36,506 nucleotides of DNA from a virus. The notes below the pieces were generated by a model. The model saw nothing but the letters and a program-made list of their open reading frames with translations, was not told where the DNA came from and did no database searches. Shown here in pieces: positions 9,935 to 33,675 of the stretch (its first letter is position 1; each line of letters opens with the position of its first letter). The stretch covers positions 1 to 36,506 of the IMG/VR virus record IMGVR_UViG_3300042935_000354, one strand, 5' to 3'. The position numbers were made by a program, and so were the translations under genes.

Positions 9935-10324
9935 ATGTCAACCAAATCCAAATACGAGTTTAAGCCGGAGATGTGCGACCAACTGATAGAGTTGGGTAAG
10001 ACAGGCGCGTCTCAAAAAATGATGTTTGCAAGCATTGGAATCACTTCCGGCGCCGCGCAGACGTTCAAGAAAAACCACCCAGAGTTTGCGGAAGCACTGG
10101 ACATGGCTGTCACCCACAGCCAAAGCTTCTGGGAGACCATGTTATTGGCCAACGTAGAAAACAAGGCCTTTAACAGCAGGGTGGCAGAGATCGCGCTGAG
10201 AGGCCAATTTGGCGACACGTACCGCGAAGACCGAAACAGCAAAGTCGAGGTCAAGGCTGACATTGTGTTGGATTTTTCTGGTGCAGTTACCGACCTAATT
10301 ACGGCGCTCAAAAAAGCGGCGTAA
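9935..10324 (+). CDS. probable terminase small subunit
   Basis: A 129-residue protein that would recognise the packaging site on phage DNA and hand it to the large terminase. The N-terminal half is an HTH of terminase-small type: EFKPEMCDQLIELGKTGAS, then MMFASIGITSGAAQTFKKNH. The following helix (FAEALDMAVTHSQSFWETML) and the FGDTYREDR segment also fit small terminases, where the central helices form the ring. The C-terminus ends in basic LITALKKAA. It stands alone between promoter motif A and a strong terminator, and no large terminase is in the window. A different HTH DNA-binding protein is possible. The start has AAGGT before ATG 9935. Confidence 0.65.
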   Translation: MSTKSKYEFKPEMCDQLIELGKTGASQKMMFASIGITSGAAQTFKKNHPEFAEALDMAVTHSQSFWETMLLANVENKAFNSRVAEIALRGQFGDTYREDRNSKVEVKADIVLDFSGAVTDLITALKKAA

Positions 10325-10330
10325 CATATC

Positions 10331-10356
10331 GTCGGTAGTTGTTAACAACTGCCGAC
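10331..10356. repeat. 26-bp near-perfect palindrome
   Basis: GTCGGTAGTTGTT at 10331-10343 pairs with AACAACTGCCGAC at 10344-10356, with one G-T mismatch and GTTAAC at the centre. It lies between the small terminase stop and the terminator. It could be an operator for a dimeric protein or a second RNA hairpin; the ATTTTG after it is too weak for a strong terminator. Confidence 0.75.
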
Positions 10357-10363
10357 ATTTTGT

Positions 10364-10384
10364 AAGCCCCGAGAGGGGCTTTTT
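10364..10384 (+). terminator. rho-independent terminator after small terminase
   Basis: AAGCCCC (10364-10370), loop GAGA, GGGGCTT (10375-10381), then a T run to 10384: a classic strong intrinsic terminator. It closes the single-gene small terminase unit. Confidence 0.9.
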
Positions 10385-10408
10385 CACCTTTGCATAAAGG
10401 AGAGCATC

Positions 10409-11533
10409 ATCGCTACACACGCACTACTCAGTGCCTCAGGGTCCAAACGTTGGATGTCTTGCACACCAAGCGCGCGACTAGAGGCCGTACTCCCCGAACC
10501 TAAACGAAGATCAGGCGCGTTTGACTTCAGCCAAGAGGGCACCACAGCCCACACCATGGCAGAGGCCAAGCTACGCCGGCAGTTTGGTCAGATAACGGCC
10601 AAGGAGTACAACGAGGCCATTGCAGAGGTCAAGGCAACACCCTACTATGACGAAGAGTTTGAGGCGTACGTAGACAACTACGTGCTTTACGTTCGTTCGC
10701 AAATTGGTGAGGGCGACACACCTTACTTTGAGCAACGGGTGGACTTCAGCGAGTGGGTGCCAGACGGCTTCGGCACAGCCGACGTGGTCATAATGAGTGA
10801 CAGCAAGGTGAGGGTGATTGACCTGAAGTTTGGCAAGGGTGTGGCGGTGGACGCCGAGGACAACCCACAACTGAGGCTGTACGCCCTTGGTGGTTGGTAC
10901 AAGTACAAGGACGTGCACCCAAACATTACCCACGTTGAATACACGATCCACCAACCCCGCAAGGACAGCATCACCACTGAAACGGTGACGCTAGAAAGTT
11001 TGCAGGATTGGGCCGAGCATGTAGTCAAACCTAAGGCCAAGAAAGCGTACGCCGGCCAAGGGGATTTTGTGGCGGGAGACCACTGCCAGTTCTGCAAGGC
11101 CAAGTCACAGTGCAAAGCCCGCGCAGACTTTAACAACGTGGCCGCGGCGGCCGATTTCAAGGCGCCGGCACTCCTGTCAGAAACCGAGTTGATAAAGATA
11201 CTCTCAGACGCGGCTAAGACACGCAAGTGGCTTTCTGACGTTGAAGAGTATATGTTGACACAGGCAACGGACCATGGCATAGTGCCTACCGGTTACGAGT
11301 TGGGGCAGACAAGCACAAACCGTAAAATAGAGGCGCAAGAAGATGCTGTGAAAAAGTTACAGAAAGCTGGAATTGATGATATATTCACCACACCCAGTTT
11401 AAAATCTGTGGCACAATTGGAAAAGCAGGTAGGCAAGGGGCACCTCCAAGATATTCTTGGTGACCTGATTGTCAAACCTGAAGGCGAGCCGAAGTTGGTC
11501 CCGTCAAAAGTGAAAGAAGAGTTTGGGTCTTGA
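10409..11533 (+). CDS. DUF2800 Cas4/RecB-like nuclease with probable AUC start
   Basis: A PD-(D/E)XK nuclease of the DUF2800 family, about 374 residues, probably a recombination or end-processing exonuclease. VRVIDLKFGKG holds the catalytic D-x-K, and NPQLRLYALG the conserved Gln and Tyr. Four cysteines, one in WMSCTPS (about residue 18) and three in CQFCKAKSQC, fit a 4Fe-4S cluster as in Cas4 and AddB. The first ATG (10454) would cut off THALLSASGSKRW, the usual family start. No ATG/GTG/TTG lies upstream in frame before the stop at 10343, whereas ATC 10409 is six bases after AAAGGAG. ATC is therefore the likely start. It is followed by the ssDNA-binding protein. Confidence 0.85.
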   Translation: MATHALLSASGSKRWMSCTPSARLEAVLPEPKRRSGAFDFSQEGTTAHTMAEAKLRRQFGQITAKEYNEAIAEVKATPYYDEEFEAYVDNYVLYVRSQIGEGDTPYFEQRVDFSEWVPDGFGTADVVIMSDSKVRVIDLKFGKGVAVDAEDNPQLRLYALGGWYKYKDVHPNITHVEYTIHQPRKDSITTETVTLESLQDWAEHVVKPKAKKAYAGQGDFVAGDHCQFCKAKSQCKARADFNNVAAAADFKAPALLSETELIKILSDAAKTRKWLSDVEEYMLTQATDHGIVPTGYELGQTSTNRKIEAQEDAVKKLQKAGIDDIFTTPSLKSVAQLEKQVGKGHLQDILGDLIVKPEGEPKLVPSKVKEEFGS

Positions 11534-11582: not shown

Positions 11583-12095
11583 ATGGCCAAGAACGAAAAA
11601 GTGGTTACCGGTAAAGTGCGTTTTTCTTATGCTAACGTGTTCAAGCCCGTTGCAAGTGAAGAGGGCAAAACTCCCAAGTACTCCGTGTCGGTAATTATCG
11701 ACAAGAAGGACAAGGAGACGATCGATAAGATCAACGCGGCTTTTGAAAAGGCCAAAGCGGCAAGTGCGGCCTATTTTGGTGGCACGGTGCCTAAGGGCCT
11801 TAAAGGCGGCCTGCGTGACGGTGACGCTGAGAAGGACGACTCTGCGTACGAAAATGCGTTTTTCATCAACGCCAATTCCGTGCAAAAGCCCGGCGTTGTG
11901 GACGCTGAGTTGAACGCAATCATTGACCCAGAGGAGTTCTACTCTGGTTGCTACGGCCGAGTGTCTTTGACATTCTACGCGTACAACCAACAGGGCTCCA
12001 AGGGCATTGCCTGCGGTTTGGGTAACTTGCAAAAGTTGGAAGACGGCGAGCGTTTGGGCGGTGGATCTTCTGCCGCTTCTGACTTCGCGGTCTAA
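11583..12095 (+). CDS. DUF2815 single-stranded DNA-binding protein
   Basis: A 170-residue protein of the DUF2815 family, thought to coat single-stranded DNA during phage replication and recombination. The order of elements fits: GKVRFSYANVFKP with TPKYSVSVIIDKKDKETI near the start, then GLRDGD and an acidic stretch, FFINANSVQKPGVVD, EFYSGCYGRVSLTFYAYN with GSKGIACGLGNLQKL, and a short Gly/Ser linker with an acidic/hydrophobic end (SDFAV) like the protein-binding tail of SSBs. AAGGAGG precedes ATG 11583. It lies downstream of DUF2800 in the pairing seen in many phages, and ends in a strong terminator. Confidence 0.88.
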   Translation: MAKNEKVVTGKVRFSYANVFKPVASEEGKTPKYSVSVIIDKKDKETIDKINAAFEKAKAASAAYFGGTVPKGLKGGLRDGDAEKDDSAYENAFFINANSVQKPGVVDAELNAIIDPEEFYSGCYGRVSLTFYAYNQQGSKGIACGLGNLQKLEDGERLGGGSSAASDFAV

Positions 12096-12102
12096 GTAGG
12101 TT

Positions 12103-12140
12103 GGTGGTTTGTAGCCTATAAGCTACAAACCACCTATTTT
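12103..12140 (+). terminator. rho-independent terminator after SSB gene
   Basis: A 13-bp perfect stem, GGTGGTTTGTAGC (12103-12115) with GCTACAAACCACC (12122-12134), six-base loop, then TATTTTGTTT. Confidence 0.85.
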
Positions 12141-16764: not shown

Positions 16765-19700
16765 TTATAAGTGCGTCAATCCACCCTTGGCGTAGTTCAC
16801 GCCGTACTTGGTTTTAAGCCGTGGGTCTTTCCACGATGTTTTCTCTACGTCACGGGCCAGCACCAGCGGTCCGGCCTGAATCTTTTCGGCCGCGCTGAAC
16901 ACGGGTTGCATGTCGGCCTTGTCGTAGAATTGTGAACCGCGGTATGGGTTCATGCCAATCTGGCGCCATGTGGGGTCTTTCAAGGCCTCTGCAAGCATCC
17001 TGCGGACCTCTTCGTCCTTGGTTGTCTGTTGGTTGCCCATCATCATAGCAAACGGGCCCTTGCCCGAACCCTCTTCAACCGACAAGGGGGTCAACGCTTG
17101 CTCTCTGGTTCCAAGGCCGACTCGCACGGCCTTGTTGGGATCAGACTGAAACTCCACGTCTTTTAAATGGCCTGTGTGGCCGTAGCCAATAGGCTTGCCC
17201 GCAGGGTCGTGCATTGTGTCAACGTAGGTGCCGTAGCGCTCGTACGCGGGGATGTCAAGGCGATTGCCTACGCGCATGCCCTCTGGCACTTGCAGGTTCA
17301 ACCCCAGAATGCCCTTGTCGGCTTTGTTCTTGTCCAGTGCAGACACGATGTCAATGTTTGAGTGCGCGGCAGGCACCTCAGTCAACGGGCGAATTGGCCT
17401 GCGCTCGTTCATAATGCGCAGGTAGTCGGCCTGTGATATTTTGCCTGTCATGTACGCTTCAAGCGCTTGGGCCAGTTGAGGGTCTTGCTGTTGCTTGAAC
17501 GGCTTTGCGTTGGCCTTGCGCCACGCTTCAACCTTTTCAGGTGTTAGCTTGAGAATGTCGTACGCTGACTCAGCAAGTCGCGTCAAACCGCCCACCTTGC
17601 CACCCTTGTCGTAGTGTTGTACACCAGTCAGGCCACCCTCTGCAAACGCACTGGACTGCAGATCTTTAATCCACTCTTCAGTGATCAACTGACGTGGGTA
17701 CACGCGCTCTGAAGAACCTGTAGGCTTATAGCCCAGAGTGTGCTCAAAGTAGCCGGGTTGTTTAAGTTCACCAGACTTCTTAGGCATTGTGTTGCCGGTG
17801 TCTGCACGCCATTGCTTTTGAAAGTCACGCAAAGACAATTCAGACGGCACGGGTTGATAAGTTACATTGAGGTCTTCGCCGTGTAACATCCAAGGGTACG
17901 CTCTATTCAAGTCAGCGCGTGGAAGGGGTTCTACTTCACCAGACAGTTTGAACGCACGAGGCCCCATGGCAAATGAAGGAGCCCCTTGTGTAAGGGGATC
18001 ACGCATTTCATCCAGTATGTTTTGATAATCAAAAATTTGTTTTTTAGTTCTGCCTAAACCTTCAGCGCCAAATGCGTGGTTTGCAATCGCTTTACGCGTG
18101 TCAAACGTGTCGCCGTATTTTTTAAGAAGGTCTTGATCAAGAACGTTAAAGTCAGAAATAGGGTCAAACTTTTGTTTAGCGATGCCTGTGTTCAAACCGC
18201 CTGTTTGCATGTACTGGTTAATTTCAGCCACGCGTTCAGGCGAGTATTTGTGCAGGTTTTTGTTGTGCTGTTTTAAAAGCTCATCGTACACAATCTGATT
18301 AGATTGGTGCATATTCTCTGAACCAATCAGTGGTGCAAAGATCTGGCGCTCTGTTCCGCCGTAACGAGGGTCTTTAGCCAAATTGGCAATGCCTGTTGCG
18401 GTGGCTTTTTGACCAGAGCCCCATGCACGATTAGCGTATTCCGGACGCGCCAAAGAGTTGGCACTAAAGCTGGTGCCACCAACACCTGCCATACGATCTG
18501 ATTGTGTTGGCACAAAGTACTGACCAAGATAGTTCTGCGCCCAGTCGGACAGTTTGCCTACCTTTTGACTACCGAGTTGCCACGCCGCTTTACCTGCGCC
18601 GGCACGACCGCCGGACTGGAAGTGTTCAACGGCGGGTAGACCGCCGTCGGACTTTTTTATTGCACCACCCTCTTTATATTTGACTGGTTCGCCTGTCGGT
18701 TGCAACACAGACTTGGTTTGGTCTTCTGTTTTGAACATGTCATACAAATACTGAAGCCCTGCGCCAGCCGCGCTTGTTGCGGCCCCAAGCAGTTTTGCTT
18801 TGGGGTTAGATGAAAACGTAGCACCCGCGCCCGCGGCGCTTAGGCCGGCCAAAGCGGCACCGCCATAGTCACCTTGTGCGGCGCGCTGAGACATGTCATT
18901 TGCTTGCGCGGCGGCCATACCACCTGCAAGGGTGTTGGCCATACGACCACCGGTGGTACCAAAGTTAACCGGCTTATTTGCAACAGGTAAACCGCCTGTG
19001 GGGGCAGGTGAAGGAACGGGAGGAGGCAAAATTTTTGAGCCACTGCCAACCGTATTAGGAAGCGCAATAAGTGAATCAGGGCCAGAAGGTGCCATGTTAG
19101 GAAACATGGACTGTGCTTTTTTAAGTCTTGCGCGTGCGGCAGGCTCTTCAGCACCAGCGGCCGCTTGACTAGGTTGTGCAAATAGCGGTTGTGCTAACAA
19201 AGGGTCGTGTTGGTTTGCAATCCAAGAGTCTTTACCTGAACCAAACACAACAGGTTTACTTACGTTAGCTTGCGCTTGTGACTGTGTTTCTTTTGCAAAT
19301 TTATCTAAAGCAAGCTGAAGTTTCATTTGGTCCGTGCGCTTTTTGCTCATCGGTTTGTCAGGACCAAATGCGTACCCTGCCATAGCACCGGCACCAGCCA
19401 TTCCAACGTCAGAGATGTCACGCTGACGACCAAAACCTTGTGCAGGTGCTGTGGTGCCTGCAAGGCCCGTAATATCTAACGGCTCAACATCTTCTAGTTC
19501 AATGTTGAATTTGCTTTTAGCCTCTGGTGCGGGAGGATTTTTAACAACTGAAGTAGTTGGGGTGGCCATACCTGCGTATCCTTTAACTTTCTGAATGTGA
19601 TTTAGCGCGGCAGGGCTTGCCTGACCATTTTTAAAATACGCGCTGTTAGGGCCGTCGTGGTAAGCAATCAACGCCTTGTCCACATCACCCTCGTATTTAT

Positions 19701-19965
19701 CAAGCATCATTTTCATATACTTGACGCCGCCACGAATGTTTTCTGCTTCGTTAAAGCGATTAACACCCATGTCTTTGGCGGCCGCTTTACCAAGCATCAT
19801 CACACCAGTGGGTCCTGTCTTAGACTTTTTGCTTTGGTCAAAACTACTTTCTTGCATGGCCATGCCATACGCTAACTCTGCAGGCACGCCTTGAGCCTTT
19901 GCTTCCGCAATCACGCGCTGTGCTGTCGCGCGTTGTTTGGGGCTGAGTGATTCAAGCCCGGTCAT
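16765..19965 (-). CDS. large virion/ejection protein with N-terminal lytic transglycosylase
   Basis: A 1066-residue protein. Residues about 10-130 form an SLT-type transglycosylase: the catalytic Glu in MAMQESSFDQS (E39), GPTGVMML in place of the GLMQ turn, and a late helix with ALIAYHDGP. It would cut peptidoglycan during DNA entry. The middle is Ala/Gly/Pro-rich and mostly disordered. The last ~190 residues (GKPIGYGHTGHLKDVEFQSD, then GMNPYRGSQFYDKADMQPV and GPLVLARDV) form a conserved-looking module that I recall from other large phage proteins without assigned function. Gly-rich motifs such as FAEGGL and YAKGGL recur. It is the last gene of the ejection block and starts on the upstream stop (TAATG). 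Confidence 0.8.
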   Translation of the reverse strand: MTGLESLSPKQRATAQRVIAEAKAQGVPAELAYGMAMQESSFDQSKKSKTGPTGVMMLGKAAAKDMGVNRFNEAENIRGGVKYMKMMLDKYEGDVDKALIAYHDGPNSAYFKNGQASPAALNHIQKVKGYAGMATPTTSVVKNPPAPEAKSKFNIELEDVEPLDITGLAGTTAPAQGFGRQRDISDVGMAGAGAMAGYAFGPDKPMSKKRTDQMKLQLALDKFAKETQSQAQANVSKPVVFGSGKDSWIANQHDPLLAQPLFAQPSQAAAGAEEPAARARLKKAQSMFPNMAPSGPDSLIALPNTVGSGSKILPPPVPSPAPTGGLPVANKPVNFGTTGGRMANTLAGGMAAAQANDMSQRAAQGDYGGAALAGLSAAGAGATFSSNPKAKLLGAATSAAGAGLQYLYDMFKTEDQTKSVLQPTGEPVKYKEGGAIKKSDGGLPAVEHFQSGGRAGAGKAAWQLGSQKVGKLSDWAQNYLGQYFVPTQSDRMAGVGGTSFSANSLARPEYANRAWGSGQKATATGIANLAKDPRYGGTERQIFAPLIGSENMHQSNQIVYDELLKQHNKNLHKYSPERVAEINQYMQTGGLNTGIAKQKFDPISDFNVLDQDLLKKYGDTFDTRKAIANHAFGAEGLGRTKKQIFDYQNILDEMRDPLTQGAPSFAMGPRAFKLSGEVEPLPRADLNRAYPWMLHGEDLNVTYQPVPSELSLRDFQKQWRADTGNTMPKKSGELKQPGYFEHTLGYKPTGSSERVYPRQLITEEWIKDLQSSAFAEGGLTGVQHYDKGGKVGGLTRLAESAYDILKLTPEKVEAWRKANAKPFKQQQDPQLAQALEAYMTGKISQADYLRIMNERRPIRPLTEVPAAHSNIDIVSALDKNKADKGILGLNLQVPEGMRVGNRLDIPAYERYGTYVDTMHDPAGKPIGYGHTGHLKDVEFQSDPNKAVRVGLGTREQALTPLSVEEGSGKGPFAMMMGNQQTTKDEEVRRMLAEALKDPTWRQIGMNPYRGSQFYDKADMQPVFSAAEKIQAGPLVLARDVEKTSWKDPRLKTKYGVNYAKGGLTHL

Positions 19966-29932: not shown

Positions 29933-30787
29933 TTACCACTCCACAATTACTAAACCACCAGCACTAGTGAGACCACTTGAAGCAAATGCGCTACCGCCTC
30001 CGGGGAAGCCACCAGCGCAATTCCAACCACCACCACCGCCGTTAACACCCGACTGTTTAGGAGCTCCACCACCACCGCAACCAATAAAATCAATTGAGAA
30101 CCCTGTTTGCGTTGGCATTGCTTGTGGCAGGACTGCTTGGAAAGAAGTTCCAGAAGCAATATTAACTCCACCTGAAGTCATAAATCCAGAACCGCCTGTA
30201 CTGCCCGATGTAGATGTGTTTTCATACCCGTTACCGCCCCCACCACCACCTCTTGACGGGGAAGGCTGATTGATGGTAAGTATTGCATCTGCGCCATTAC
30301 CAAAATAGCTTGCGGCTCCACCACCACCAGAAGCATTATTAACAGAGCCGTTATATGACCCCGTGCCTCCCGTGTTATTGATGTCGCCACCAACACCTGT
30401 GCCTCCTGTGTTGAAAGGAGCCGCCCCTACACTTGCGTAATAACCTCCAGTAGCTGAACAGTAAGACCCAAAAGATGAGCTACCTGCCTGCAAAGTAGAA
30501 CCACTACCGTAGTTACTAGTAAGCGCTCCAGACCCAACAGAAACAGGAACTGAAGCTACACCAGTTAAGTCATAAATGGTTTTCATGGCAAAACCACCAC
30601 CACCACCACCACCGTAATTACTAGAGTTAACATTACTTGCCCCGCCAGCACCCCACATACGGACTCTAACTTTACCTATGCCCTGTGGGACAACCCATGC
30701 ACCGGAAGCAGAAAAAAACTGCACATTGCCCGTTCCAAAAACTCCCGTGACGGGGTTGTAGATTTGACTAACTGTTTGAATTGCCAT
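29933..30787 (-). CDS. glycine-rich tail tip adhesin-like protein
   Basis: 284 residues. An N-terminal QIYNPVTGVFGTGNVQFFSA is followed by a region in which glycine runs (up to seven Gly in a row, with GGGGG and GGG clusters) alternate with polar loops (about residues 50-280). The layout recalls phage receptor-binding adhesins whose glycine motifs form polyglycine II helices with exposed loops that contact the receptor (T-even gp38 type). AGGGGA precedes the ATG. It lies between the large fibre and the small tail protein, consistent with a tip protein. Confidence 0.65.
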   Translation of the reverse strand: MAIQTVSQIYNPVTGVFGTGNVQFFSASGAWVVPQGIGKVRVRMWGAGGASNVNSSNYGGGGGGGFAMKTIYDLTGVASVPVSVGSGALTSNYGSGSTLQAGSSSFGSYCSATGGYYASVGAAPFNTGGTGVGGDINNTGGTGSYNGSVNNASGGGGAASYFGNGADAILTINQPSPSRGGGGGGNGYENTSTSGSTGGSGFMTSGGVNIASGTSFQAVLPQAMPTQTGFSIDFIGCGGGGAPKQSGVNGGGGGWNCAGGFPGGGSAFASSGLTSAGGLVIVEW

Positions 30788-33675
30788 TATGAATTCCCCT
30801 GCATATTGATGAGTCTGCCGTTAAACGTACCACGTACACCGTTCACACCCGCGCCTTGGTGGTCAACAGCGCCAGAGCTTGTGCTGGTATAATTTGCGTT
30901 GAGTTGCGCCGCACCGTTCACAATAACTTGACCAGTTGAACCAGCAGTTGCGGTTGTTGCGGCTACCCCAGAAAAAACACCGCCAATAATCGATGAGTTA
31001 ACTGATTGGGTTACTGGAGACACGGTAATGCCAAGGGATGACGATACTCCAGCAGTTAAAGTGGTAGACGCGCTAACTGGGATGACATTGGCAATTGCGT
31101 ACTGCAAGAAACCGTTTCCATCAGCCCACGCTAGCACGATGTTGTTGCCAAACCCCGGAGTGGTAACAGTCAGCATTCCAGCCCCAACAGTGGCGGTTCG
31201 AAACGAAGCCGTTGACGTAGATAATCTTGCTATGTTCGGGTACGTAATTTGGTTTGCACTAAAGTTGCCGTTTCCAGAATTAGTCCACCCAACAAGGTTG
31301 TTTGTAGCACTAGTATTCAAGGGGTAAAATAACACAGGATTACCCAGCCCAGTAACGCCAACTACCCCACCCCAATAGTTATTAAGACCTGAAGAAGCCG
31401 ATATCAGGGAGTTTTGTGAAATCCCAACAGTCAGTTCTTCAGTTGCGGTAAATAAATAATTTGCGCCGTTATACCCCAAGCCGTAAAGCACCCCGTTTGA
31501 GTATGAAAGTCTAGTTTGATAGTTAGCAGTGCTACCTGTAATGGTTGCATTGGTTATTGTGGTGTAAAGATTTCCAGAGTAGTTGTAGAAACCGAAAAAC
31601 CGAATTGCAGTGCTTGACGTAACATACAACTGAACGTAAAACCCACCCCAATCATTAGCGGTTACAGACAGACCCGAAGAAGCCCCGCTAACAATAGTGT
31701 TTGAATCAATTGATACGTTTGAACTATTCCAAACCTGATAACTATTATCACTTGAGTTGTTTACAGCTACTACAACAAAACGATCATTAGACAAGCCCGC
31801 AGATGAAATATTATTAAGAGCGCCTACGGGGTTATATAAATTAGTCCAAGTAGACGTGTTTATAAATACATAGGAGCTGGAATACATTGCGTTGATAAGT
31901 GTTGCCCCACTGGCGGAGCCGCAATAAGAAACAACAAACTTGCCAGATGATAAAGCGCATACGGAAATTTGACCCGTATCAGTACTTGCAAAACCTGTAC
32001 CAACAGTTATTGTTTGTAACAGAACACCAAAAGGTGAAAACACAGAAACATACACTACGTATGTGGTGTAGTCTTTGTATGCAATCAGAAAATTACCATT
32101 GGGCAGAGTCGCCGCTGAGTTTGAGCTAATTGTACTACTGTAAAGAATTGAAGGGGGCAGTGTGTAAGACGTAGAAGTCTGAACAGATGCCGTACCTGAT
32201 GCCGCCGCTGACACAGCAACCGCAGTGGGTGTAGTTCTTCCATACCCCAAACCAGAGGCGGCTGACGTTGATGTTCCAACGGTTGCAGATACTCCGTTTG
32301 TCGTTAAAAGCGTGTACGTAGTTTTATCTAACTTAAAGTAGTGTGATGAAGCTACAAGAAGACTATCCCTCTGCTTTGATCCGGAAAAATAAACACAAAT
32401 GGCTGTTGATGTTTCTAACAAAGTTAAACACACCTGTGGCCTCATCTGTACTGAATTCAATGGGATGGGGATTACTCCATTTGAATTGGTGGCTATTACC
32501 GCCGTACCCGATGAATTAAACACTGCGTAGTTTAACCCGCTAAGAGGAGTAGAGACACCGTCCCCAAAGGTGCATATAAAATTACCGTTACTTAGTCCAA
32601 GTACGTTTATGGGCGCTGTGGTCGTATTTGCTTGATTGCCGTTAATATTTGACGACGGTATTATAAATTGTGAACTTATAACGTTTCCTGTTGGAAGAAA
32701 CCTAAAGGCAAGAGTCTGATTGCTACCAACTGGGTCATTGCCTTTATACGCAAGGACAAAAGTTGTTCCGTTTGATAATACGGAAACATCACACGCTGGG
32801 CCAACCGAAGAAACAGAAATAGTGTTGTTGGTAATTGCCACTCCAACAGCGGTATACAAGTAATAATTGTACGTATTACTTGTGCTGGGCATAAAAATAA
32901 TAAACGAACTATCACTTCTAGCCGCCATACCAAACGCGGCTTGTGATGTATTTATAGCACCCACAGTAGTTGCGGAATATGTCGGAGTCACCACCGAGCC
33001 AGCTAGCGTGTAACCCCTATGAATTATTTGATTGCTTCCTGAATTTCCCCCAGCTAAAACCCAACCACCGTTTGGAAGAGCTACGCCGTTAATACCCAGC
33101 GTACTATTAGCAAAATCTAAAGTTGTGTCTTGCGTTGCCGCAACCACTGACGCACCAGCATTTGTGAAAATGGCGTAACACATTCTGTTTATACTACCAC
33201 CAGCACTATTAACCCAGTACACAACAAAGTTACCACTTGTTAACGCCAAAACGCCAACATTTGAACAATTAGTATTAGTTAAACCACTAGAAATTAGAGT
33301 AGGTATAACAACAGTGTTGTTGTTTACATCAATAATTTTAAAATAGACCTGCCCGTTGATTGAGCTATTGGTCATAAAAGCTTGAACCATATTTCCATTG
33401 CTTAACACCGCCGCGCCTCTGTTGACAGAACCGCCATAAACGCCGGTACCTTGTCCCGGCGCATTGGTGCTGTAAATCCAGTCGTTAGGCTTTGTAGGTA
33501 AGGTTTGCACCGCTGGAAAATTTGCGGAGCTTGGCAGGGTTAAATTGGGCGCACCCTTGTAGTCGCCGTTCTGGTAATAAACCAAGTCACCAGCGGCAAA
33601 TCCCGTGTTAGTCGCTACTGAAACAACGCTTGTTGAAGAAGAATTAGCGGGGAATTGTTGAATTGAACGTGACAT
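30787..33675 (-). CDS. large fibre / receptor-binding protein with propeller-like repeats
   Basis: 962 residues, Ser/Asn/Thr/Val-rich. A conserved-looking N-terminus (TNTGFAAGDLVYYQNGDYKG) probably attaches it to the tail. About every 45-65 residues a short block recurs: LSNGNMVQAF, LTSGNFVVYW, LPNGGWVLAG, LSNGTTFVLAY, LSNGNFICTF, LPNGNFLIAY, LSSGKFVVSY and LSNDRFVVVA. These look like blades of a beta-propeller, a fold often used to bind sugars or proteins. The region is clearly richer in A and T than its neighbours, so it may have come from elsewhere. No enzymatic motif was seen. GAGG precedes the ATG. Confidence 0.7.
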   Translation of the reverse strand: MSRSIQQFPANSSSTSVVSVATNTGFAAGDLVYYQNGDYKGAPNLTLPSSANFPAVQTLPTKPNDWIYSTNAPGQGTGVYGGSVNRGAAVLSNGNMVQAFMTNSSINGQVYFKIIDVNNNTVVIPTLISSGLTNTNCSNVGVLALTSGNFVVYWVNSAGGSINRMCYAIFTNAGASVVAATQDTTLDFANSTLGINGVALPNGGWVLAGGNSGSNQIIHRGYTLAGSVVTPTYSATTVGAINTSQAAFGMAARSDSSFIIFMPSTSNTYNYYLYTAVGVAITNNTISVSSVGPACDVSVLSNGTTFVLAYKGNDPVGSNQTLAFRFLPTGNVISSQFIIPSSNINGNQANTTTAPINVLGLSNGNFICTFGDGVSTPLSGLNYAVFNSSGTAVIATNSNGVIPIPLNSVQMRPQVCLTLLETSTAICVYFSGSKQRDSLLVASSHYFKLDKTTYTLLTTNGVSATVGTSTSAASGLGYGRTTPTAVAVSAAASGTASVQTSTSYTLPPSILYSSTISSNSAATLPNGNFLIAYKDYTTYVVYVSVFSPFGVLLQTITVGTGFASTDTGQISVCALSSGKFVVSYCGSASGATLINAMYSSSYVFINTSTWTNLYNPVGALNNISSAGLSNDRFVVVAVNNSSDNSYQVWNSSNVSIDSNTIVSGASSGLSVTANDWGGFYVQLYVTSSTAIRFFGFYNYSGNLYTTITNATITGSTANYQTRLSYSNGVLYGLGYNGANYLFTATEELTVGISQNSLISASSGLNNYWGGVVGVTGLGNPVLFYPLNTSATNNLVGWTNSGNGNFSANQITYPNIARLSTSTASFRTATVGAGMLTVTTPGFGNNIVLAWADGNGFLQYAIANVIPVSASTTLTAGVSSSLGITVSPVTQSVNSSIIGGVFSGVAATTATAGSTGQVIVNGAAQLNANYTSTSSGAVDHQGAGVNGVRGTFNGRLINMQGNS

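Follow-up and report, generated by a model that had tools for sequence, protein, structure and literature searches.

Where does a phage nuclease gene begin if its reading frame offers no serviceable ATG, GTG or TTG, and what would such a start mean for the amount of nuclease that is made?

The nuclease gene and its start region

The window, i.e. the whole stretch of DNA analyzed, is a viral record of 36,506 bases. According to PHROG and Pfam matches its forward genes (about 1-16.7 kb) include primase, helicase, DUF2800 nuclease, Gp2.5/Enc34-like ssDNA-binding protein (SSB), RNR and DNA polymerase. Beyond about 16.7 kb the genes run backward, and six of the nine minus-strand proteins tested matched PHROGs, mostly head and tail families. 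A 962-aa protein in this virion-gene half (30787-33675, minus strand) had no tblastn match among 50,697 phage records at E 1e-5. The replication genes also hold a weak terminase-small-subunit-like protein (9935-10324; PHROG E 5e-7, no Pfam match) with two tandem terminator-like hairpins behind it, and another terminator-like hairpin of 13 bp (GGTGGTTTGTAGC...GCTACAAACCACC, 12103-12134) lies 3' of the SSB gene.

The nuclease scored above the cut-offs of two Pfam profiles, DUF2800 (PF10926; 387 bits, E 9.4e-116, cut-off 21 bits) and PD-(D/E)XK (45 bits, cut-off 22 bits), and its PHROG match is an exonuclease. Among the best 50 rows of a Foldseek search the predicted structure was matched best by Cas4-like ACE1, MGME1, AdnAB and AddAB, with TM not exceeding 0.34 (query length) or 0.48 (target length), and a PDB sequence search gave no match at E 0.1. 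Four cysteines (C18, C226, C229 and C235) are invariant in 24 rows and lie in regions of low pLDDT; they may correspond to the four of the Cas4/AddB Fe-S nucleases. As residues 1-35 are unresolved in the predicted structure (pLDDT about 30, 24-row alignment), it is silent on the need for residues 1-15. Nuclease, Gp2.5-like SSB and phage DNA polymerase are found close together by Pfam and PHROG (DUF2800 10409, SSB 11583, DNA polymerase 14776). These are the same three genes as in the duf2800-gp2.5-polA phage module named in passages of PMC8093625 that do not mention start codons, with the difference that an RNR gene stands between SSB and polymerase in the window. The features needed below are:

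10331-10356, plus strand: terminator-like hairpin, 11 bp, 3' of the upstream gene
10364-10384, plus strand: second terminator-like hairpin, AAGCCCC-GAGA-GGGGCTT, with a T-run
10387-10400, plus strand: predicted hairpin CCTTT-GCAT-AAAGG, 5 bp, its 3' arm holding most of the Shine-Dalgarno sequence (SD)
10396-10402, plus strand: SD AAAGGAG, spaced 6 nt from the start, with a duplex energy of -8.7 kcal/mol against the assumed anti-SD
10406-10408, plus strand: in-frame ATC directly 5' of the start (tandem AUC AUC), a possible alternative start
10409-10411, plus strand: putative ATC start codon of the DUF2800 nuclease, from conservation and alignment with relatives
10409-11533, plus strand: DUF2800 / PD-(D/E)XK exonuclease-like coding sequence, 374 aa, from Pfam, PHROG and Foldseek
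10421-10434, plus strand: putative hairpin GCACT-ACTC-AGTGC, 5 bp, inside codons 5-9
10454-10456, plus strand: first in-frame ATG; CTG in one of 46 contigs (L005), not a conserved start
11583-12095, plus strand: partner gene, Enc34/Gp2.5-like SSB, ATG, SD AAGGAGG (-11.4)

A sequence-only reading had proposed that the gene starts with AUC, and its coordinates were exact: AAAGGAG (10396-10402) is followed by the six bases AGCATC, by ATC (10409-10411) and then by GCT ACA CAC GCA. It was also right that no ATG, GTG or TTG lies in frame between the stop at 10343 and ATG 10454, where the frame reads a stop followed by QLPTFCKPREGLFHLCIKESIIATHALLSASGSKRWM; a CTG is present at 10349 in this frame, upstream of the ATC. 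Absent from that reading was that the codon 5' of the proposed start (10406-10408) is ATC as well.

The ATC codon is fixed in a clade of relatives

We collected relatives from IMG/VR by tblastn and, among the best 80 of 210, the upper half (L001-L040) all carried ATC at the start, and the lower half (L041-L080) had 37 ATG and 3 TTG. A pattern search that fixed the N-terminal codons and ignored the start codon returned 46 contigs from 39 metagenomes, and the homologue of 10409 was ATC in 46 of 46. When ATA, ATC or ATT was demanded at the start, 49 contigs were found, i.e. the same 46 together with L084 and L110 (ATC) and L099 (ATT). Demanding ATG, GTG or TTG gave 29 contigs, whose distinct full-length proteins were all at most 76% identical to that of the window. 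Thus the alignment of relatives that had been suggested as a check shows ATC throughout the clade and, in relatives at about 75% identity or less, mostly ATG with TTG or GTG in some; a second group holds two further near-cognate starts (ATC, ATT). Since 46 of 46 contigs from 39 metagenomes carry the ATC it is not a matter of chance, and by this comparison a read error, named beforehand as what would refute the AUC start, is excluded as its source, as is a fresh mutation.

More AUH starts (AUA, AUC or AUU) were sought among viruses with an SD-anchored pattern, which gave 76 stretches, 49 already in hand and 27 new. Twenty-six of the new ones open frames of only 1-70 aa and were judged to be chance matches. 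The remaining one, L176, is a full-length DUF2800 gene in which ATG is the very next codon, and it was omitted from the SD statistics. A pattern scan of the genome collection gave two matches with frames of 24 and 2 aa, also judged to be chance.

Weaker start codons go with stronger SDs

SD energy was calculated for distinct contexts as that of the most stable duplex formed within 22 nt with ACCUCCUUA, the assumed 16S tail. The three ATC contexts gave -8.7, -8.7 and -9.1 kcal/mol and the single ATT context -8.7, compared with a median of -5.6 (best -7.4) for eight TTG contexts, -5.6 for three GTG contexts and -2.9 (best -7.2) for 61 ATG contexts. Rank tests with the AUH starts counted as three lineages gave p values, all optimistic owing to shared descent, of 0.001 against ATG and 0.005 against GTG/TTG, and of 0.008 for GTG/TTG against ATG. 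Hence, by calculated energy, a weaker start codon is associated with a stronger SD in the nuclease family, and the AUC/AUU leaders have the strongest SDs among the members examined. An alignment of six leaders placed the strong SD of L084 and L099 within a block that is missing from the four ATG rows. In addition, an ATH codon stands directly 5' of the start in 5 of 5 AUH contexts vs. 7 of 92 others (L176 omitted), in the forms ATC ATC, ATC ATC ATC and ATT ATC ATT, and such tandem near-cognate codons may matter.

How often was an AUH start gained? In a protein tree of 83 rows one starred group of 40 rows takes in all 33 AUC rows and also seven ATG rows (L052-L058), the latter on a long branch at an unresolved fork. 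Because these seven lie inside the same group, the lineage may have gone back to ATG later on, with another leader. L084 and L099 are placed far from the clade, among ATG, GTG and TTG rows. In DNA comparisons of 107 rows L084 paired with an ATG row (100) and L099 fell in a set of five whose nearest rows have ATG (99), and parsimony on these rows asked for two changes for L084 and L099. A single clade of the two was, in turn, not rejected by the AU test (p 0.114), and their leaders, which have in common a block containing AAGGAGAA and begin with codons that are alike, are thus probably of one origin. The three independent gains read from the first tree are weakened by this likeness and by the AU test, and for the same reasons we claim only that the AUH start appears to have been gained at least twice, perhaps three times.

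A predicted hairpin covers the SD of a nearly frozen leader

The leader CCTTTGYATAAAGGAGAGCATC is present in 46 of 46 clade contigs, and the hairpin over the SD is identical in all of them save for C or T in the loop (40 vs. 6). This loop base is the only variable one from -29 to -1 among 33 distinct clade sequences. By comparison with these 29 bases, 16 of 32 alignment columns just upstream vary (Fisher p 4e-5), and so do 86 of the 117 fourfold sites within codons 1 to 330. Predicted pairing over AAAGG was 0.72-0.99 with a long leader and 0.42-0.78 with a shorter one. Of the 18 ATG relatives in the group at 65% identity or more, 8 have a similar hairpin with the loop G-Y-A-K and 10 lack it. 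For seven of the eight distinct hairpin segments, chosen by a motif that itself fixes the three inner pairs, pairing in the stem amounts to 92.9%, and three of its six pairs show double changes. None of 500 shuffles reached the paired percentage, the number of doubly changed cells or the covariation score; for doubly changed pairs 20 shuffles attained the count, and for pair types 35 did so. Controls slid by +2 and +3 show double changes too, and the +3 control has three doubly changed pairs. We regard an SD-covering hairpin in the nuclease leader as likely.

Two other uses of this region were considered and set aside. The sequence of a downstream hairpin (10421-10434) that would aid initiation at AUC is retained by 32 of the 33 distinct clade rows; constraint on third positions is modest, however, with 14 of 302 windows as low, and the region folds differently in ATG relatives. 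A leaderless start from the TATAAA/CATAAA block (10393-10398) would discard the SD, and no promoter-like site was found at that block; leaderless mRNAs appear to need AUG, according to PMC5622118.

Elsewhere in the family, L044/L048 and L049 have identical nuclease proteins with quite different leaders (GGTTTGTAACAAAC vs. TTTCTTTGTAGAAAGAAA), which suggests that leaders are swapped by recombination. Relatives at about 60% identity (e.g. L060, L136 and L191) carry a recurring element like TTTTGCGTATTAGTAA-TATAC upstream of DUF2800, before the ribosome binding site, perhaps a promoter or operator.

Output of the nuclease relative to SSB

With the nearest canonical codon counted as its start, SSB begins with ATG in 99 of 100 contexts, and where the nuclease itself has ATG the SD of SSB is stronger than that of the nuclease in 69 of 78. 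In the window the nuclease combines AUC with an SD of -8.7 and SSB an ATG with one of -11.4. From these comparisons a low nuclease-to-SSB ratio looks like the conserved property, reached mostly by a weak SD with AUG and in a few members by a strong SD with AUC or AUU. L084 and L099 speak against this, as the SD of SSB is weaker there than that of the nuclease. The earlier suggestion that a weak start keeps nuclease levels low is plausible, given ATG relatives with weaker SDs and an SSB gene with ATG and usually a stronger SD. A stronger SD compensates for the start, and the output from AUC is therefore not necessarily below that of the ATG relatives.

We envisage that the nuclease of the DUF2800-SSB-polA module begins at AUC 10409, presumably decoded by the initiator fMet-tRNA. 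ARAGORN found no phage tRNA for AUC in the window, and RF00005 was matched in none of seven AUC-clade records including the window and in one of ten records overall, the ATG-type G008 (L148), where the records may be fragments. The strong SD AAAGGAG with its 6-nt spacing would hold the 30S subunit at AUC and offset part of the weakness of a near-cognate start, which would be slow and rejected by IF3, and the hairpin would gate access to the SD. Nuclease synthesis would then be low, possibly regulated, and below that of the adjoining SSB gene with its AUG and AAGGAGG; a surplus of exonuclease could damage replicating phage DNA. Such a low-output or hairpin-gated role of the AUC leader is plausible, and we consider it quite probable as a whole that the AUC start is real and fixed and gives a low, possibly hairpin-gated output of nuclease as compared to its SSB partner. 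A more far-reaching idea, which we regard as unlikely, is that AUC and SD hairpin form a translation-fidelity sensor that ties the nuclease to the IF3 level or the state of the host ribosomes, so that it would rise only at a set stage and in proportion to SSB, with such a start gained at least twice.

The strongest competitor, to which we give somewhat less than an even chance, is that the AUC is real but regulates nothing: drift removed AUG, and strengthening of the SD brought the output back to its former level. This agrees with the way SD strength tracks start weakness in the nuclease family, and Belinky et al. (PMC5622118) report a like trend for GUG and UUG; moreover, the SDs of the ATG relatives are weak, so outputs may be equal. 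On the other hand, one base suffices for reversion to ATG and yet ATC is kept in 46 of 46 contigs, and the 29-base leader is nearly frozen. Changes of this kind are also rare, as passages of PMC5622118 list, for 61,358 ancestral AUG starts, one AUG-to-AUU and no AUG-to-AUC change, counted in annotated cellular genes where rare starts may be under-called.

Where translation begins

Variation within the clade was used to locate the start. Among 33 distinct sequences, A, T or S is encoded at codons 2 and 3, and the variable ones of codons 4-15 (4, 8, 11, 13 and 14) change synonymously only. The 20 codons preceding ATG 10454 hold 19 synonymous vs. 5 non-synonymous variants and no stops. Scanning 26 plus-strand frames, several of which had few or no upstream codons, we found no other sense-strand gene with more than one net synonymous variant 5' of its first canonical start; frames that did show a synonymous excess upstream either had one variant apiece (two frames) or lay antisense inside the minus-strand gene 16765-19965 (two frames). 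Residues H4, A5, L7, S8, S10, R14 and W15 are invariant in 24 relatives. These patterns indicate that codons from about 4 onward are under protein selection.

Upstream of the start a T-run is five long in 29 of the 46 clade contigs and six long in the other 17, and therefore no upstream frame is kept in the clade. An in-frame GTG at -60 occurs in 5 of 32 distinct clade rows, 5' of the second terminator-like hairpin, and is absent from the window and the remaining rows. Thus, in the contigs compared, the frame holds no conserved canonical start upstream of the AUC or shortly downstream of it. The synonymous-only codons 4-15, the change of ATG 10454 to CTG in L005 and the broken upstream frame place the start at the ATCATC doublet. 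Initiation there is most likely, best at 10409, and translation of the nuclease from AUC is very likely: the codon is fixed in 46 of 46 contigs, is followed by synonymous-only codons and aligns with the ATG of outgroup relatives, which bears out the start proposed at first.

Within the doublet, the first AUC (10406), or both, might be used. That all 5 AUH contexts, vs. 7 of 92 others, have an ATH codon immediately 5' of the start speaks for it, but GGAG is only 3 nt from 10406 and 6 nt from 10409, it is 10409 that aligns with the relatives' ATG, and the leaders of L084 and L099 are probably of common origin; we therefore hold it to be improbable. Far less probable still is a start at ATG 10454, by which residues 1-15 would never be made. 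It is the first canonical start in frame, but it is CTG in L005, lies behind codons (4-15) that vary synonymously only and is preceded, by eye and unscored, only by AGGG 12 nt away. As had been argued from the window, it would also drop an N-terminal motif conserved family-wide.

We give equally little credence to a start in another frame upstream that enters the nuclease frame by a +1 frameshift. All 33 distinct clade rows keep a TTG at -19 (10390 in the window), whose frame is open to +92 in the six rows examined, and L084 (TTG) and L099 (ATG) have a start codon at -55, likewise in that relative frame; however, no SD is seen by eye 5' of TTG 10390, which lies within the hairpin, and the starts at -55 and -19 are non-homologous. 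A sequencing or assembly error, or a dead gene, has a negligible chance in view of 46 contigs from 39 metagenomes and an open frame whose body differs from relatives by 472 synonymous, 314 non-synonymous and 2 stop variants. We thus retain initiation at AUC, best at 10409, as the preferred reading.

Relation to known near-cognate starts

AUC is hardly ever used for initiation. Members of a small class of genes start with AUH or other near-cognate codons, and PMC13009471 and PMC5472188 name several of them. In S. aureus, cvfC1 (AUU) and ccpN and citZ (AUA) have conserved starts, strong extended SDs and a reporter yield below that of AUG, and the ccpN reporter showed an effect of growth medium (PMC13009471). 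The phage nuclease resembles them in its conserved AUH start with a very strong SD. It differs in that those are cellular genes with AUU or AUA, studied by Ribo-Ret and reporters; the phage gene has AUC, is known from sequence and has a predicted SD hairpin in addition. The gene for IF3, infC, starts with AUU in E. coli and with ATC in Streptomyces, so that AUC itself is on record there, and its output is limited (PMC5472188). Like the nuclease it has an AUH start, but its product is the discriminating factor itself, with feedback, and the nuclease is not known to feed back. In Streptomyces, sigR has a GTC start, experimentally tested, that is repressed by IF3 and sets the ratio of SigR to RsrA (PMC5472188). 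A non-canonical start would likewise set the ratio of protein to partner, here SSB, for the phage nuclease, with the codon AUC instead of GTC. Repression by IF3 and the setting of protein ratios at near-cognate starts are thus described for infC and sigR (PMC5472188; also PMC2268962). In a passage of PMC10303841, AUC occurs as a start-codon mutation only, with much lower expression. Among the open-licence papers that our searches brought up, judged by titles, abstract openings and some passages, none described AUC or AUU as the start of a phage gene.

Hairpins over the SD of replication genes serve as translational operators in phages T4 and MS2. The nuclease leader would be similar in that the SD of a replication gene is covered by a hairpin; its stem is only 5 bp, its start AUC, and the hairpin is predicted and without a known binding protein. 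Efficiency figures for AUC in E. coli have reportedly been given by Hecht et al. in 2017.

Membership of the AUH-start class rests on the lack of a serviceable canonical start and on an AUH codon conserved at the homologous start. For the nuclease, AUC is found there in 46 of 46 contigs, aligned with the ATG of relatives, and the first ATG is CTG in L005. Judged by these comparisons it would join infC, sigR and S. aureus cvfC1, ccpN and citZ as a new member.

Common gene finders look for ATG, GTG and TTG, and a finder so restricted would therefore call the nuclease 15 residues short. To our knowledge, experimentally confirmed near-cognate starts are few. With 33 distinct natural variants, sister lineages with ATG, GTG and TTG, and a measurable trade-off with SD strength, the nuclease family offers an unusually good natural comparison set, and the evolution and use of near-cognate starts would therefore be directly testable in phages.
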